DNA of 48,618 bases from Aminivibrio sp. (GTDB lineage: Bacteria; Synergistota; Synergistia; Synergistales; Aminobacteriaceae), in contig NZ_JAESIH010000074.1 of assembly GCF_016756745.1 (NCBI RefSeq), forward strand, positions 1 through 48,618. The letters run 5' to 3'. The notes under the pieces are model-generated. The model did not search any database. It had not been told where the DNA came from and saw only the letters and a program-made list of their open reading frames with translations. The number at the start of each line of letters is the position of its first letter. Within the stretch, counting starts at the first letter, position 1. The position numbers and the translations under genes are program-made. Shown piece after piece: positions 4,581 through 46,871 of this stretch.

Positions 4581-5173
4581 ACTTCTCTGGGGCTCACTCC
4601 GGAAGCGAGCAGGGCCGCCTCGAGGTGATAGAGAAGGTCCGCCGCCTCGCATACCGTTTCCTTCCTGTCTCCGGCCGCCACGGCAAGAGCGGTTTCAACC
4701 CCTTCCTCCCCGACCTTCTGCGCCACTCTCCGCAGCCCCTTTGACAGGAGCCGAGCGGTGTAGCTTTCGGCGGGGTCGTCAAAACGTCGTTTTTCCAGGT
4801 ATCTCCAAAGGACGCCGGGAAAAGTTCCCCGTCCTTCGCAGGGGGGGGTGAGAAGCCTGTGGAAGCACGTCCGTTCTCCCGTGTGACATGCGGGGCCGGC
4901 CGGTTCCGCAAGGGCGAGAAGGGCATCACCGTCGCAGTCCAGCCTGAGTTCCTGGAGGGCGAGGGTGTTTCCGCTTGTTTCGCCCTTTTTCCAGATCTCC
5001 CTGCGGGACCGGCTCCAGAAGGTCATCATGCCGGAGGAAAGAGCGGCTTCAAGCGCTTCCCTGTTCGCCCAGGCCATCATGAGCACCTCTCCGGAAAGGA
5101 CATCCTGCACGATGACGGGAACCAGTCCGTCTCCGTCAAATTTCACATCCTCCAATGAAAATACCATATTCAT
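4550..5173 (-). CDS. hisIE: Bifunctional phosphoribosyl-AMP cyclohydrolase / phosphoribosyl-ATP pyrophosphatase
   Basis: 207 residues, carrying out steps 2 and 3 of histidine synthesis. The N-terminal cyclohydrolase half has the WKKGETSGNTL motif and the metal-site CHTGERTCF. The C-terminal pyrophosphatase half, from about residue 120, has KVGEEGVETALA and EAADLLYHLEAAL. The start ATG at 5173 overlaps the hisF stop as TGATG. It is the last gene of the his operon and ends 31 bases inside the convergent PHP gene. Fusion of HisI and HisE is common in bacteria. Confidence 0.95.
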   Translation of the reverse strand: MNMVFSLEDVKFDGDGLVPVIVQDVLSGEVLMMAWANREALEAALSSGMMTFWSRSRREIWKKGETSGNTLALQELRLDCDGDALLALAEPAGPACHTGERTCFHRLLTPPCEGRGTFPGVLWRYLEKRRFDDPAESYTARLLSKGLRRVAQKVGEEGVETALAVAAGDRKETVCEAADLLYHLEAALLASGVSPREVYAELERRHR

Positions 5174-5934
5174 CACCTCGGCGGGCGGACGGGAATGCCC
5201 CGTTCCGCGAGATAGCGTTTCAGATCGGGGATGCGTATCTCCCCGAAGTGGAAGACGGAGGCCGCCAGGGCGGCGTCGCTTCCTGCCCGGAATGTGTTCA
5301 GTATATGCTCCATGGACCCGGCGCCGCCTGAGGCGATGAGAGGGACAGGAACCTTTCCCGAGACCATGGCGTTGAGTTCGTCGTCGTAACCCCTTTTCAC
5401 CCCGTCCCTGTCCATGGAGGTCAGCAGAATCTCTCCGCATCCCCTCCGGACACCTTCTACGATCCACTCCAGGGCGTCCTGCCCGGTAGGGGTTCTTCCT
5501 CCGTCGATGAAAACTTCCCATTTCCCCGTTCCGCACCGCCCGGCGTCCACCGCCAGCACCACAGCCTGCTTTCCGAGCAGAGCGGCACATTCCTCGATGA
5601 GGGAAGGATTCCGGACCGCGGCGGAGTTCAGCGAGATTTTGTCCGCCCCGAGGGTGATAATATCCCTGGCCTGTTCCACCGACGAAATTCCGCCTCCTAC
5701 GGTAAAGGGGATAAACAGGGCATCGGCAACCGACGATACCCAGGCGGTCATGGTCCGCCTTCGCTCCGCCGAGGCTGTGATGTCGAGGAATACCAGTTCA
5801 TCGGCTCCCTCCTCCATGTATGCGGCGGCCATCCTGGCCGGATCCCCGGCGTCCCTGAGGTTCACAAAGTTTACTCCCTTGACCACCCTTCCGTCCTTGA
5901 CGTCCAGGCAGGGGATGATTCTTTTCGTCAGCAT
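5173..5934 (-). CDS. hisF: Imidazole glycerol phosphate synthase, cyclase subunit
   Basis: 253-residue (beta/alpha)8 barrel, the usual HisF length. The N-terminal catalytic aspartate lies in [15 protein letters not shown] and the second in LAVDAGR; phosphate-binding loops are seen as VGGGIS and IASGGAG. With HisH it turns PRFAR and glutamine-derived ammonia into IGP and AICAR. It overlaps hisA by 7 bases and hisIE by 1, in the middle of a tightly coupled his operon. Confidence 0.97.
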
Positions 5935-42210: not shown

Positions 42211-42776
42211 CTTTTTCGTCCGTTTTTGACATTGCCATTGCCCTGATTGTGGCTTCCTTTGCCGTCAGGGGCCTGTTCCGTGGATTGTCAGGGGAAATAT
42301 TTTCCCTTCTCGGTACGGTTGGAGGCGTCATAGTGGCCTGGAAATATTCCGGCGTGCCTGCGGCGTGGATCCTCTCCATGTTCCCGGAGGCCAATCTGTC
42401 CATGGTGTCCGTAGGCTTTATGGTTGCCATCTACATTGGGGTTGTCGTTCTAGCCGCCTCGATCTGCCGGATTGTCAAAGCCTTCCTGAAGTTTGCGTCC
42501 CTTACCTTCGCCGACAGGTTTTTCGGCGCCGCCGCCGGTATTTTCAAGGGGGCCGTTCTCATCCTGTTTCTTTACGTGGGCATCACCACCTATTCTCCCT
42601 TCTTGCCCACGGAATGGATGGAGTCGAGCTACGTTATGCGCGGTGCGGACGCCGCATGGCCGGGCATACAGGATTTTCTCCGGAAATACGATTTCTTCCC
42701 GGAGAATTTTTCCCTGCCGGGCCTGAATCTTCCCGGGCTCTTCCCGGAAAAAGTCGAGGGCGGCAATGGAGGTTAG
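42207..42776 (+). CDS. cvpA: CvpA-family membrane protein
   Basis: 189 residues. Four membrane segments: FDIAIALIVASFAVRGLFRG, EIFSLLGTVGGVIVAWKYSG, VSVGFMVAIYIGVVVLAASI and FFGAAAGIFKGAVLILFLY. The RGLFRGLSGEIFSLLG motif is typical of CvpA. Function is not firmly known (colicin V production, envelope homeostasis). It overlaps mutS2 by 11 bases. Confidence 0.88.
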   Translation: MTFSSVFDIAIALIVASFAVRGLFRGLSGEIFSLLGTVGGVIVAWKYSGVPAAWILSMFPEANLSMVSVGFMVAIYIGVVVLAASICRIVKAFLKFASLTFADRFFGAAAGIFKGAVLILFLYVGITTYSPFLPTEWMESSYVMRGADAAWPGIQDFLRKYDFFPENFSLPGLNLPGLFPEKVEGGNGG

Positions 42777-45117
42777 GGAAGACATTCTCAGAATCCTCGA
42801 AATACCGAAGATTCTTGCCGAGTTCGCCTCCTGTGTCAGGGGCGAACTCGGTTTGTCGGCCATCGGCAGGCTGAGGCCCAGGGGAGACGGGAAATCCCTT
42901 GAGGAAAGGGTAGCCCTTTTCAAAAGCTATATGTCCTGCAGGGACACCTTCGGCGAATGGCCGTGGAACTCTTCCGGATGCATCTCAGGGCTGACGGCGG
43001 AGGCACGGAAGTCAGGATTGCTCACCGGTGAGGAGCTGGCTTCCGTTGCCCGGTTTCTCTCCCTGGCGAAGATGACCAGGGAACATCTGGTGAAGCACCG
43101 GGACGCCTATCCTCTTTTCGACAGTCTCAGCCGGCAGATACGGGATTTTTCGGAAGAGTCGGATGCCCTCGGTGTGCTGGACGACAAGGGGAATCTTTAT
43201 GATTCCGCCTCCCCTAAACTTGCGGAAATACGCCATGACCTTGAGACTCTTCGCCGGCAGATACGCCGGTCGGCCCAGAACATTCTCGATAACCCTTCTC
43301 TTGCCCATATGCTGCAGGAAAGGGTGACGGCCTTCAGAAACGGACATTTCGTTTTTCTCGTCCGGCAGGAGTTCGTCAACCGCTTCCCGGGAACGGTGGT
43401 GGACCGGTCAGGGTCAGGCAGCTCCGTCTACATGGAACCCTCCGCCCTCGTTCCACTAAACAACAGGCTTGCCCTGAGAGTACGGGATGAAAAGGAGGAA
43501 GAGCGGGCCATCTTGCGGAGGCTCACCAAAGTGATCCTTGCCAGGGAACGGCCTCTTTCGGAATGCGAAAACGTTCTCTCTGACCTCGATCTTTTTTACG
43601 GCGCGGCGGAGGTCATGGCGAAGAAACGATGGAAACTGCCCCAGTATGCCGAAAAGACCATGTTTGTCCTCCAGGAGGCCCGGCATCCCCTCCTCGGCGA
43701 TGCTGCCGTGCCCGTGACGATCAGGTGCGGGGACCGTTTTCGGAGCCTCGTCATAACGGGGCCGAATACGGGCGGCAAGACGGTGGTCCTGAAGACGGCC
43801 GGAGTCTGCGTCTACCTTGCCTGGTGCGGCCTGCCCATACCTGCGGGGGAGGATTCCGTGGTGGGCAATATCGGTTCCATATTCGCCGATATCGGCGACG
43901 AGCAGAGTATTGAGCAGAATCTTTCCACCTTCAGCGCCCACGTGAAAAATATCATTTCCATTCTCGAGCAGGCGGACCGTACGTCCCTGGTTCTCCTCGA
44001 CGAACTTGGAGCGGGGACGGATCCCCAGGAAGGGGCAGCCCTCGGTATCGCCATCCTCGATACCCTGACCAGGGAAAAGGGACTTACCTTGGCCACCACC
44101 CACCACAATCCCGTGAAGCAATACGCCCTTACCGCACCGGGAGTGGAAACGGCCAGCATGGAATTCGACATTGAATCCCTTTCCCCCACCTACAGGATGC
44201 TTCTCGGGGTACCGGGAAAGAGCAACGCCCTGCTCATCGCCGGGAGGTACGGTCTTCCGCAAAAGGTGCTTGAAAAGGCCCGGAAGGTTCTCAGCGAAAG
44301 AGAGGCCCCCGTAGAAGACCTGATAGGGGAACTCAACGAGAGAAAAGCATGGCTCGACAGGGCGGAGGGGGAGATAGCGGCCTTGCGGAAAAGCCTTTTG
44401 GAAGAAAAAAAGAAGTACGACGACAAGATGAGAGAAATCGAATCCCGCAGGGACAGGATTCTTTCCGAGGCGGAGCGGAAGGCTGCATCTATCCTGGAAA
44501 AAGCTGAGGAATCAAGCAGAAAGCTGCTGAAGCAGCTTGAAGACTCCGCAAAATCAGCAGTCCATCGCCAGATTCGGGACACGAGCGAAAAAGTCCGCTC
44601 GGAAAGAAAACATCTGGAGCAGAATCAGGAAAAACGGCTTCTCCGAAGTGGCGCCGCCGACGACGGAGAGTTTTCCCCTTCCGTCGGAACGGCCGCCCAA
44701 GTCGCGGGGACGGAAATCGTCGGGACCATTGAGTCCATCAGGGGAAACCGGGCTCTTCTCAGGGCGGGCGTCATGAAGATGGAAGTGGATGTCAAAAAGC
44801 TTCTTCCCACCAAAAAGAAACCCAAGGGGGCCGTTACTCCTCCCGAATCCTTTTCCATATCCCCGGACCGGGTTCCTCCTTCGATCATGGTCAGGGGAAT
44901 GAACGTGGATGAAGCTCTTCCCGTGGTCGAGCGCTACCTCGACCAGGCCATGCGCATGGGCTACGACCAGGTCACCGTCATCCACGGGCGGGGAGAAGGC
45001 ATACTCAGGAGGGAAGTGCACGCCCTCTGCTCCTCCCTGAATTACGTGGCGTCCTATAGGCTCGGAGGCCCGTCGGAAGGCGGCTTCGGCGTCACAGTGG
45101 TGGAGTTCCGGAAATAA
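42766..45117 (+). CDS. mutS2: MutS2-family ATPase (ribosome rescue / recombination control)
   Basis: 783 residues. No mismatch-recognition domain; helical lever region, then ATPase with Walker A GPNTGGKTVVLKTAGV, Walker B LLDELGAGTDPQEGAAL and ATTHHNPVKQYAL. A long coiled coil (about 510-625) and a C-terminal Smr domain with VTVIHGRGEGILRREV follow. The usual LDLHG/LDxR motif of the Smr domain reads IMVRGMNVDEAL, lacking the Asp, so nuclease activity may be reduced (inference). Confidence 0.94.
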   Translation: MEVREDILRILEIPKILAEFASCVRGELGLSAIGRLRPRGDGKSLEERVALFKSYMSCRDTFGEWPWNSSGCISGLTAEARKSGLLTGEELASVARFLSLAKMTREHLVKHRDAYPLFDSLSRQIRDFSEESDALGVLDDKGNLYDSASPKLAEIRHDLETLRRQIRRSAQNILDNPSLAHMLQERVTAFRNGHFVFLVRQEFVNRFPGTVVDRSGSGSSVYMEPSALVPLNNRLALRVRDEKEEERAILRRLTKVILARERPLSECENVLSDLDLFYGAAEVMAKKRWKLPQYAEKTMFVLQEARHPLLGDAAVPVTIRCGDRFRSLVITGPNTGGKTVVLKTAGVCVYLAWCGLPIPAGEDSVVGNIGSIFADIGDEQSIEQNLSTFSAHVKNIISILEQADRTSLVLLDELGAGTDPQEGAALGIAILDTLTREKGLTLATTHHNPVKQYALTAPGVETASMEFDIESLSPTYRMLLGVPGKSNALLIAGRYGLPQKVLEKARKVLSEREAPVEDLIGELNERKAWLDRAEGEIAALRKSLLEEKKKYDDKMREIESRRDRILSEAERKAASILEKAEESSRKLLKQLEDSAKSAVHRQIRDTSEKVRSERKHLEQNQEKRLLRSGAADDGEFSPSVGTAAQVAGTEIVGTIESIRGNRALLRAGVMKMEVDVKKLLPTKKKPKGAVTPPESFSISPDRVPPSIMVRGMNVDEALPVVERYLDQAMRMGYDQVTVIHGRGEGILRREVHALCSSLNYVASYRLGGPSEGGFGVTVVEFRK

Positions 45118-45159
45118 GACGCGGATTGCAGCTCGCGAGGAGCAAGGGAGGGAAAGAAA

Positions 45160-45378
45160 GTGACTGAAGGCAGGCTTGTATGCTACTGCTTCGGGTATTC
45201 CCGGGAAGATATTGAAAAAGAGTATCTTGTCACCGGGCGTTCCGCCATCCTCGTAAAAATACTCTCGTCGAAAAATGCCGGAACCTGTGAATGCGCGGCA
45301 AAAAACCCGTCCGGGACCTGATGTGCGGGTGATGTCCGCAGGGTGCTGGACGAACTTGAAACGAAACGCAAACCATGA
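45160..45378 (+). CDS. BFD/CopZ-type [2Fe-2S] protein, candidate selenoprotein (Sec54)
   Basis: Read through the TGA at 45319-45321, the 72-residue product has CYC at 8-10 (VCYCFGYSREDIEKEYL), CEC at 43-45 and U-Cys at 54-55 in KNPSGT-U-CAGDV. This matches the BFD-like domain of CopZ-type iron-sulfur proteins, where the corresponding position is a Cys in NPSGRCC. The part after TGA is family-like (CAGDVRRVLDELE), which argues against a true stop at 53 residues. GTG 45160 follows GGGAGGGAAAG. It lies 43 bases after mutS2. The SECIS-like hairpin is listed separately. The alternative is a cysteine gene broken by a TGA nonsense mutation. Confidence 0.75.
45334..45351 (+). promoter_or_regulatory. 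Bacterial SECIS-like hairpin
   Basis: GUCCGC pairs with GC-U-GGAC (bulged U) around the loop AGGGU. The loop begins 18 bases after the TGA; in E. coli fdhF the analogous GC-AGGUCU-GC loop begins 17 bases after its UGA. Position, G-rich loop and a bulged U all fit the bacterial rules for SelB recognition. An alternative hairpin UGCGG/CCGCA lies closer to the UGA. Confidence 0.65.
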
Positions 45379-45532: not shown

Positions 45533-45608
45533 GCGCCTGTAGCTCAGCGGATAGAGTATCGGCCTCCGGAGCCGAGGGTCTGGCGTTCGAATCGCCACAG
45601 GCGCGCCA
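45533..45608 (+). tRNA. tRNA-Arg (anticodon CCG)
   Basis: 76 bases with encoded CCA. Acceptor stem GCGCCTG/CAGGCGC, D-arm GCTCAGCGGATAGAG, anticodon stem TCGGC/GCCGA with loop CTCCGGA (CCG, reads CGG), T-arm TGGCG-TTCGAAT-CGCCA. All stems pair perfectly. Confidence 0.97.
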
Positions 45609-45651: not shown

Positions 45652-45674
45652 CCACATTGGCAGGAAAAGGGGCG

Positions 45675-46871
45675 GTGACCGTGAGTTTCAGGGCGACCAT
45701 TCTGGATGTTCTATCATCGGATGAAAAAAAGAAGAAATTTACCCTTCTTCTCTCCGGCGGAGACCTTCATCCTTCCGGAGGAGGGCAGCCCGGGGACTCT
45801 GGGAGTCTCTGGACGGAGGATTTCCGGTTCCAAATCGACGACACGGAAAAACGGGACGGAGGATTGGCTGTCACGGGAAAAGCGGAAAAGGGTTCTCCTG
45901 CCCCCGGAATGGAAGTGGAAGGAGAGGCGGACCTGGAGCGGCATCGCCTCCTCTCGAGGATGCATACGGGGGAACATATCCTTTCAAGGGCTCTCGAAAA
46001 GGCCCATCCCGGGCTCCGGGTTTTCAAGGTTGCCGTTGACAGCGCCGAAACGTCGGTATATTTGACCTGGGATGGTGAACTGGACTGGGATGTGCTCTTC
46101 GAAGCGGAGAAGGAAGGCAACAAGATAGTTGCGGAAGACCTTCCCGTTGAAACCGTCATGCTTTCGAAGGACGAGGCGGAACACCTTCCCGGAATAAAGG
46201 GAAACTGGAGCAGAATCGCCGATGAAACCATCAGGGTGGTCCGCATTCCCGGATATGACGCCATCGCCTGTTCGGGGAGCCATGTTTCGTCCACCGGCAA
46301 GGTGGGAAACCTCTTCATCACGGCTTTCCGGGGAACCTCGCCGGACTGGGAGTTCAAGTTTTCCGTGGACGGGTCGGTGCTTCGCCAGGAATACAGCGAG
46401 GCAGCCCGCAGACTTGTTCGGAGCATAGGCTGCAGACTCTCCCAGCTTGGCCGGGTTGTAGGCGGGCTTCAGGAGGAAAACGGGGCCCTGCGGAAGTTGA
46501 TGGAGAGGGCTTCCCAATATATCTCCCTTCCTGCGGAAGACTTCAGCGCCGGAGGACTGCCTGTTTCCGCCGCGGTCCTTCCCGGTTTTTCCAGGGAACT
46601 CGCAGCTCCCGCGGCACGGAAATGGTCAGACGCCAATCCCGGCAGGGTGTTGCTGTTGCTGCTTCCTGAGCCGGAAAAAAACGAGGGCTCCTTTCTCCTC
46701 TATGGCGGCAAAGAAATTTCCGTCGATTTTTCCGCCTTTCTGAAGGAAAGCCCCGGGCTCCGCGCCAGAGGCGGCGGGCGGAGCGACTGGCTGAACGGTC
46801 TTTCTCCTGTGATGGAGGTTGAGCCCTGGCTTGAAGCGCTGAAAGTCTATGCGGAAAAAAAGCGGCCCTGA
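45675..46871 (+). CDS. AlaX-type alanyl-tRNA editing protein with DHHA1-like tail
   Basis: About 398 residues from GTG 45675; GTG 45681 or TTG 45657 are alternatives (AGGAAAAGGGG is at 45662). It resembles the AlaRS second half: an OB-like start (GGDLHPSGGGQPGDSG), zinc-binding editing motifs RMHTGEHILS and IACSGSHV, a helical linker and a DHHA1-like C-terminus (DANPGRVLLLLLP ... RARGGGRSDWLNGLS). It should hydrolyse Ser- or Gly-tRNA-Ala. The stop TGA lies in the loop of its terminator. Confidence 0.88.
   Translation: MTVSFRATILDVLSSDEKKKKFTLLLSGGDLHPSGGGQPGDSGSLWTEDFRFQIDDTEKRDGGLAVTGKAEKGSPAPGMEVEGEADLERHRLLSRMHTGEHILSRALEKAHPGLRVFKVAVDSAETSVYLTWDGELDWDVLFEAEKEGNKIVAEDLPVETVMLSKDEAEHLPGIKGNWSRIADETIRVVRIPGYDAIACSGSHVSSTGKVGNLFITAFRGTSPDWEFKFSVDGSVLRQEYSEAARRLVRSIGCRLSQLGRVVGGLQEENGALRKLMERASQYISLPAEDFSAGGLPVSAAVLPGFSRELAAPAARKWSDANPGRVLLLLLPEPEKNEGSFLLYGGKEISVDFSAFLKESPGLRARGGGRSDWLNGLSPVMEVEPWLEALKVYAEKKRP

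Follow-up and report, generated by a model that had tools for sequence, protein, structure and literature searches.

A very probable selenoprotein gene for a short CopZ-like [2Fe-2S] protein in Aminivibrio sp., with relatives frequently placed in arsenic-type operons

The question raised by this locus is whether the TGA at positions 45319..45321 ends a 53-residue reading frame or is read as selenocysteine (Sec) within a longer one. The window, i.e. the whole 48,618-nt stretch of Aminivibrio sp. DNA that was analysed, carries the candidate gene at 45160..45378, and all features of the window given below lie on the forward (+) strand. A frame continuing through this single TGA had been claimed in a first-pass annotation, and translation showed it to be present: it opens with GTG, has a likely ribosome-binding site (GGGAGGG, 45147..45153) 6 nt 5′ of this start, passes the TGA at codon 54 and stops at a second TGA (45376-45378). 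The product, VTEGRLVCYCFGYSREDIEKEYLVTGRSAILVKILSSKNAGTCECAAKNPSGTUCAGDVRRVLDELETKRKP, would have 72 residues including Sec54. The motifs named for the two sides of the internal TGA, CYC, CEC and NPSG before it and AGDVRRV after it, were all found, with UC at the Sec site. Ordinary gene finders cut the gene short at the TGA; the analysis supports the full-length product.

The gene stands alone between mutS2 and a tRNA gene, and neither ArsP nor copper genes adjoin it. Upstream, separated by a gap of 42 nt, is MutS2 (42766..45117; Pfam MutS_V and Smr; synteny with genome G001); downstream are tRNA-Arg(CCG) (45533..45608; ARAGORN) and an AlaX-like alanyl-tRNA editing protein (45657..46871; Pfam tRNA_SAD; synteny with G001 and G002). 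The selenoprotein gene has the same placement between mutS2 and tRNA-Arg/AlaX in G001. G002 (L077) keeps the order mutS2, tRNA-Arg and AlaX and lacks the selenoprotein gene, which makes this an empty site within the genus; no gene remnant was found in its shorter intergenic stretch, and the empty site fits a simple gain or loss of the gene. No neighbourhood was common to the other Synergistota copies across genera.

A check for selA, selB, selD and tRNA-Sec, proposed together with the first-pass annotation, found all four in the genome to which the window belongs (2.94 Mb, estimated 100% complete). The tRNA-Sec has the anticodon UCA (74.5 bits), SelA adjoins SelB, and SelD is also present. SelA was found in every Synergistota genome having a TGA copy. 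The SelD gene itself (G000:C82:1228-2163, L019) contains an in-frame TGA, and SelD is therefore probably a selenoprotein too.

A search of 201 genomes detected relatives with TGA at the same codon in a sister species and in other genera; loss of the TGA in close relatives, named beforehand as an outcome that would speak against selenocysteine, was not what was seen. In a profile search, the short form of the protein was represented by 9 copies in 8 of 188 Synergistota genomes, including the window, and all 9 had TGA. It was also present in a class outside Synergistota, the one to which G201, a MAG labelled Deltaproteobacteria, belongs (hereafter, the second class). Copies were detected there in 18 of 46 genomes, and TGA was found in 18/18 full-length copies; a 19th match ends at a contig edge before the Sec site and is outside this count. 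In a tree of 29 sequences from Synergistota, the nine short copies formed one clade (support 100/100). The sister clade was mostly Cys (TGC/TGT), with three TGA copies, and the TGA stands in place of a cysteine of the NPSGxCC motif. Sec and Cys alternated at this site among the homologues: L052 (TGA) and L046 (Cys) come from the same genus, and the Sec/Cys labels need four changes on the tree. Within the short stand-alone clade, Sec was kept in every full-length copy found. No relative of the window protein was found in a viral collection.

Downstream of the TGA is a SECIS-like hairpin, GUCC-GC-AGGGU-GC-U-GGAC (45334..45351), which begins 12 nt past the UGA and has its loop (45340-45344) beginning 18 nt past it. 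In E. coli fdhF, the sequence of which was matched under that gene name in 5368 E. coli genomes, the loop begins 17 nt after the TGA. The GC-AGGGU-GC tip and its spacing are thus as first described, but the bulged U is on the 3′ arm here and on the 5′ arm in fdhF. Most relatives form a continuous helix without this U, which is therefore not a conserved feature.

Taken alone, the hairpin is unremarkable, since an equally stable 18-nt fold occurs at the same offset for 49 of the 1402 TGA trinucleotides in the window; folding 53 nt of the region gave a different structure (z = -0.65), and the window copy by itself was not significant upon shuffling of synonymous codons (p = 0.11). It is conservation across relatives that lifts the hairpin beyond chance. 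TGA members share its position, except for the distant copy L052, which did not have it there, and it was weaker or missing in most Cys members. In statistics that ignore relatedness among the sequences, the 27-nt segment from 9 to 36 nt past the codon had a mean folding energy of -9.2 kcal/mol in TGA members vs -3.7 kcal/mol in Cys members (Mann-Whitney p = 4e-4), and synonymous-codon shuffles gave combined p values of 6e-7 and 0.23, respectively. Over 27 sequences, the six-pair helix was formed in 93.8% of cells, compared with 25-51% for slid versions. Covariation was modest, with double (compensatory) changes at two pairs, a level reached by 15 of 500 shuffles, because the helix also codes for conserved residues. 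No Rfam family was matched at the hairpin. Its position and its stability across relatives suggest a SECIS, and we refer to it as SECIS-like.

These data bear on the simplest alternative, in which translation really ends at the TGA (or the TGA reflects a sequencing error or a pseudogene) and only the 53-residue peptide is made. Most gene callers would end the gene there, and the 53-nt fold in isolation is ordinary. Against this, the homologous codon is TGA in 27/27 full-length copies of the short clade from two lineages, and the protein sequence after it is conserved across both. Comparison with the sister species gave a dN/dS of 0.31 for the part before the TGA and of 0.19 for the part after it (few sites), the latter indicating purifying selection on the codons 3′ of it, and the genome decodes Sec. 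We regard a true stop as extremely improbable. Because of the Sec machinery, the kept TGA, the position of the hairpin and the purifying selection 3′ of the TGA, the window gene very probably encodes a true selenoprotein, a judgement that rests on sequence comparison.

Assignment to a protein family required a profile. A single-sequence phmmer search against PDB returned only chance matches to cell-adhesion proteins, and the window protein scored 14.7 bits with Pfam PF04324 (Fer2_BFD), under the 26-bit gathering threshold; the same model was matched by 18 of 18 aligned relatives at E ≤ 0.1 (best, 1e-12). A profile matched 2hu9, the N-terminal domain of Archaeoglobus fulgidus CopZ, at 2e-11, and Bfd structures more weakly. 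Of the NCBIfam models, which describe longer proteins, NF047645 (CopZ_Nterm_CC) was matched at 1.9e-12 (47.5 bits vs a cut-off of 100) and NF045877 (the Csac_0668 family) at 18.2 bits vs a cut-off of 190, in both cases over the C-terminal part only. An AlphaFold (AF2) model had a pLDDT of 85, and its top solved match was again 2hu9 (probability 0.93), with a weak Foldseek E-value (0.29). The window protein satisfies the CopZ-like [2Fe-2S] pattern CxC...C...NPxGx(C/U)C, and the A. fulgidus domain shares CYC...C...NPSGRCC with it across the whole [2Fe-2S] half, with Cys at the Sec site. Bfd (PDB 4e6k and 6e6r) shares the BFD-like fold and the CxC start, but its profile match ends before the NPxGxCC part. 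The 72-residue product is thus most probably a stand-alone [2Fe-2S] protein of the CopZ-N-terminal-like type. That a BFD/CopZ-family selenoprotein with its own SECIS-like hairpin is encoded here, as first claimed, is supported by the machinery, the kept TGA and the Sec/Cys alternation, and we hold with high confidence that the UGA at codon 54 is read as selenocysteine and that the protein belongs to the CopZ family.

The family is not new as a selenoprotein family. A table in a 2026 review (PMC13188914) gives a "(2Fe-2S)-binding protein (copper chaperone CopZ family) form 1" with the motif GxUC, as well as a "form 2" (Csac_0668) with the motif CU, and both CopZ forms are listed in a 2022 review (PMC9312934). 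In the window protein, Sec is the first residue of the CC motif, and NPSGTUC fits GxUC. Form 1 (cd10141; representative WP_245779778.1) has the same domain family and, judged by its motif, the same Sec position, and its entry in PMC13188914 describes neither a neighbourhood nor a SECIS. Form 2 (NF045877) shares the C-terminal [2Fe-2S] domain and the presence of Sec in the CC motif, but by its motif the Sec is at the second Cys, and the profile has 161 residues vs 72 here. CopZ is mentioned neither in the main text of the GOS paper to which the review refers for this family nor in Peng 2016, so that the first description of the family was found in neither.

To consider what Sec54 might do, the protein was aligned to 2hu9, where C8, C10, C45 and C55 correspond to C75, C77, C109 and C119, and Sec54 to C118. 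The presumed cluster ligands of A. fulgidus CopZ are Cys 75, 77, 109 and 119, and Sec54 would therefore lie beside the ligand C55 and not be a ligand itself. This goes against the earlier proposal of Sec as a cluster ligand. Direct ligation of the [2Fe-2S] cluster by Sec54 could be argued from its location within the conserved CC motif, adjoining the last presumed ligand, and a ligation shifted by one residue is conceivable; but four ligands are already on hand, since nearly all relatives retain C45, and we consider direct ligation unlikely. A role for Sec54 as a reactive non-ligand selenol is possible. Two residues before C45 is C43, which is invariant in the aligned short copies and is not shared throughout the sister clade. 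A selenol one residue off a presumed Fe-S ligand in such a tiny protein would be a handy model for selenium/iron-sulfur chemistry.

Indications of function come from the neighbourhoods of relatives. In the second class, an ArsP_1 permease gene immediately precedes 14 of 18 copies, and L079 is close to such a gene; genes for an ArsC-like reductase, TauE and an MTH895/ArsE-family thioredoxin often occur nearby, and an ArsR-type regulator is upstream of some copies. A conserved order of ArsC-like, ArsP_1, Sec protein, TauE and ArsE-type thioredoxin was observed in L081-L096 of this class (L092:89-3038). Cys relatives L110 and L111 show the order ArsR-thioredoxin-ArsP-CopZ-like. The ArsP_1 proteins match both SaoE and Cu/Zn efflux models, under the cut-offs in each case. 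Three ArsP_1 genes occur elsewhere in the genome to which the window belongs, surrounded by ArsR-like, LMWP/ArsC-like and thioredoxin genes. Co-occurrence is uninformative in Synergistota, because ArsP is found in 143 of 188 genomes with or without the selenoprotein gene, and one carrier (G016) has no ArsP. What is new here is the frequent placement of relatives in arsenic-type detoxification operons; no published ArsP link for a CopZ-like selenoprotein was found in a limited literature search, and the link may already be known. The known form 1 motif is hereby placed in a short stand-alone clade, with a concrete, testable tie to arsenic-type permease operons.

From the gene neighbourhoods elsewhere, a role linked to ArsP-type export may tentatively be suggested for the short Sec form, and we consider it plausible but short of probable. 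The following steps would be involved. SelB and tRNA-Sec would decode the codon 54 UGA as selenocysteine with the assistance of the hairpin, a step strongly supported by comparison. C8, C10, C45 and C55 would hold the [2Fe-2S] cluster, and Sec54, perhaps with C43, would be the reactive group. Electrons supplied by the cluster or by a thioredoxin-type partner would keep Sec54 reduced, and the reduced Sec54 could act on a soft metal(loid) or sulfur species by binding or reducing it. An ArsP-type permease would then export this species, both partner and substrate being suggested by the neighbourhoods elsewhere. In a more specific form, the short Sec protein would serve ArsP/SaoE-type permeases as a dedicated partner for redox or binding, its selenol beside an Fe-S ligand handling a metal(loid) or organometal(loid) for export, and copies outside operons, such as that of the window, would act in trans on ArsP elsewhere in the genome; this is possible and somewhat doubtful.

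Two other functions were considered. A. fulgidus CopZ has a Zn-binding half at the N terminus and a domain for copper binding at the C terminus. A copper chaperone partnered with a CopA-type ATPase, like A. fulgidus CopZ, would agree with the family name and the CopZ homology, and the sub-cut-off match of ArsP_1 to the Cu/Zn efflux model leaves copper as a possible substrate. However, the 72 residues make up the [2Fe-2S] domain only, lacking the N-terminal part of the CopZ models as well as the copper-binding HMA domain, and the neighbourhoods are operons of the ArsP/ArsC/ArsE type instead, which makes a copper chaperone quite unlikely. The protein might also be a general, Bfd-like [2Fe-2S] electron carrier, in which Sec only tunes the redox properties and which has nothing to do with metal(loid) export. 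Such a carrier, for which the BFD-like fold and the isolation of the gene in Synergistota can be cited, has against it the repeated position behind ArsP permeases in the second class and in Cys relatives; it may be kept as a possibility of modest weight.

Some further arrangements were observed among relatives. A TGA copy of the sister clade, in L112 (G089, approximately 5578-5817), comes right after an ArsC-like gene (5135-5545) and is about 2.7 kb from an ArsP gene. Close to an ArsP operon, L113 (G128) has two neighbouring CopZ-like matches, at 1248-1484 and 2078-2311, which are 24% and 41% identical to the probe. CopZ-like matches were also obtained on plasmids (H2 and H8, from Deinococcus and a planctomycete), where they overlap or adjoin annotated merA/merB, which hints that Cys relatives may be tied to mercury.
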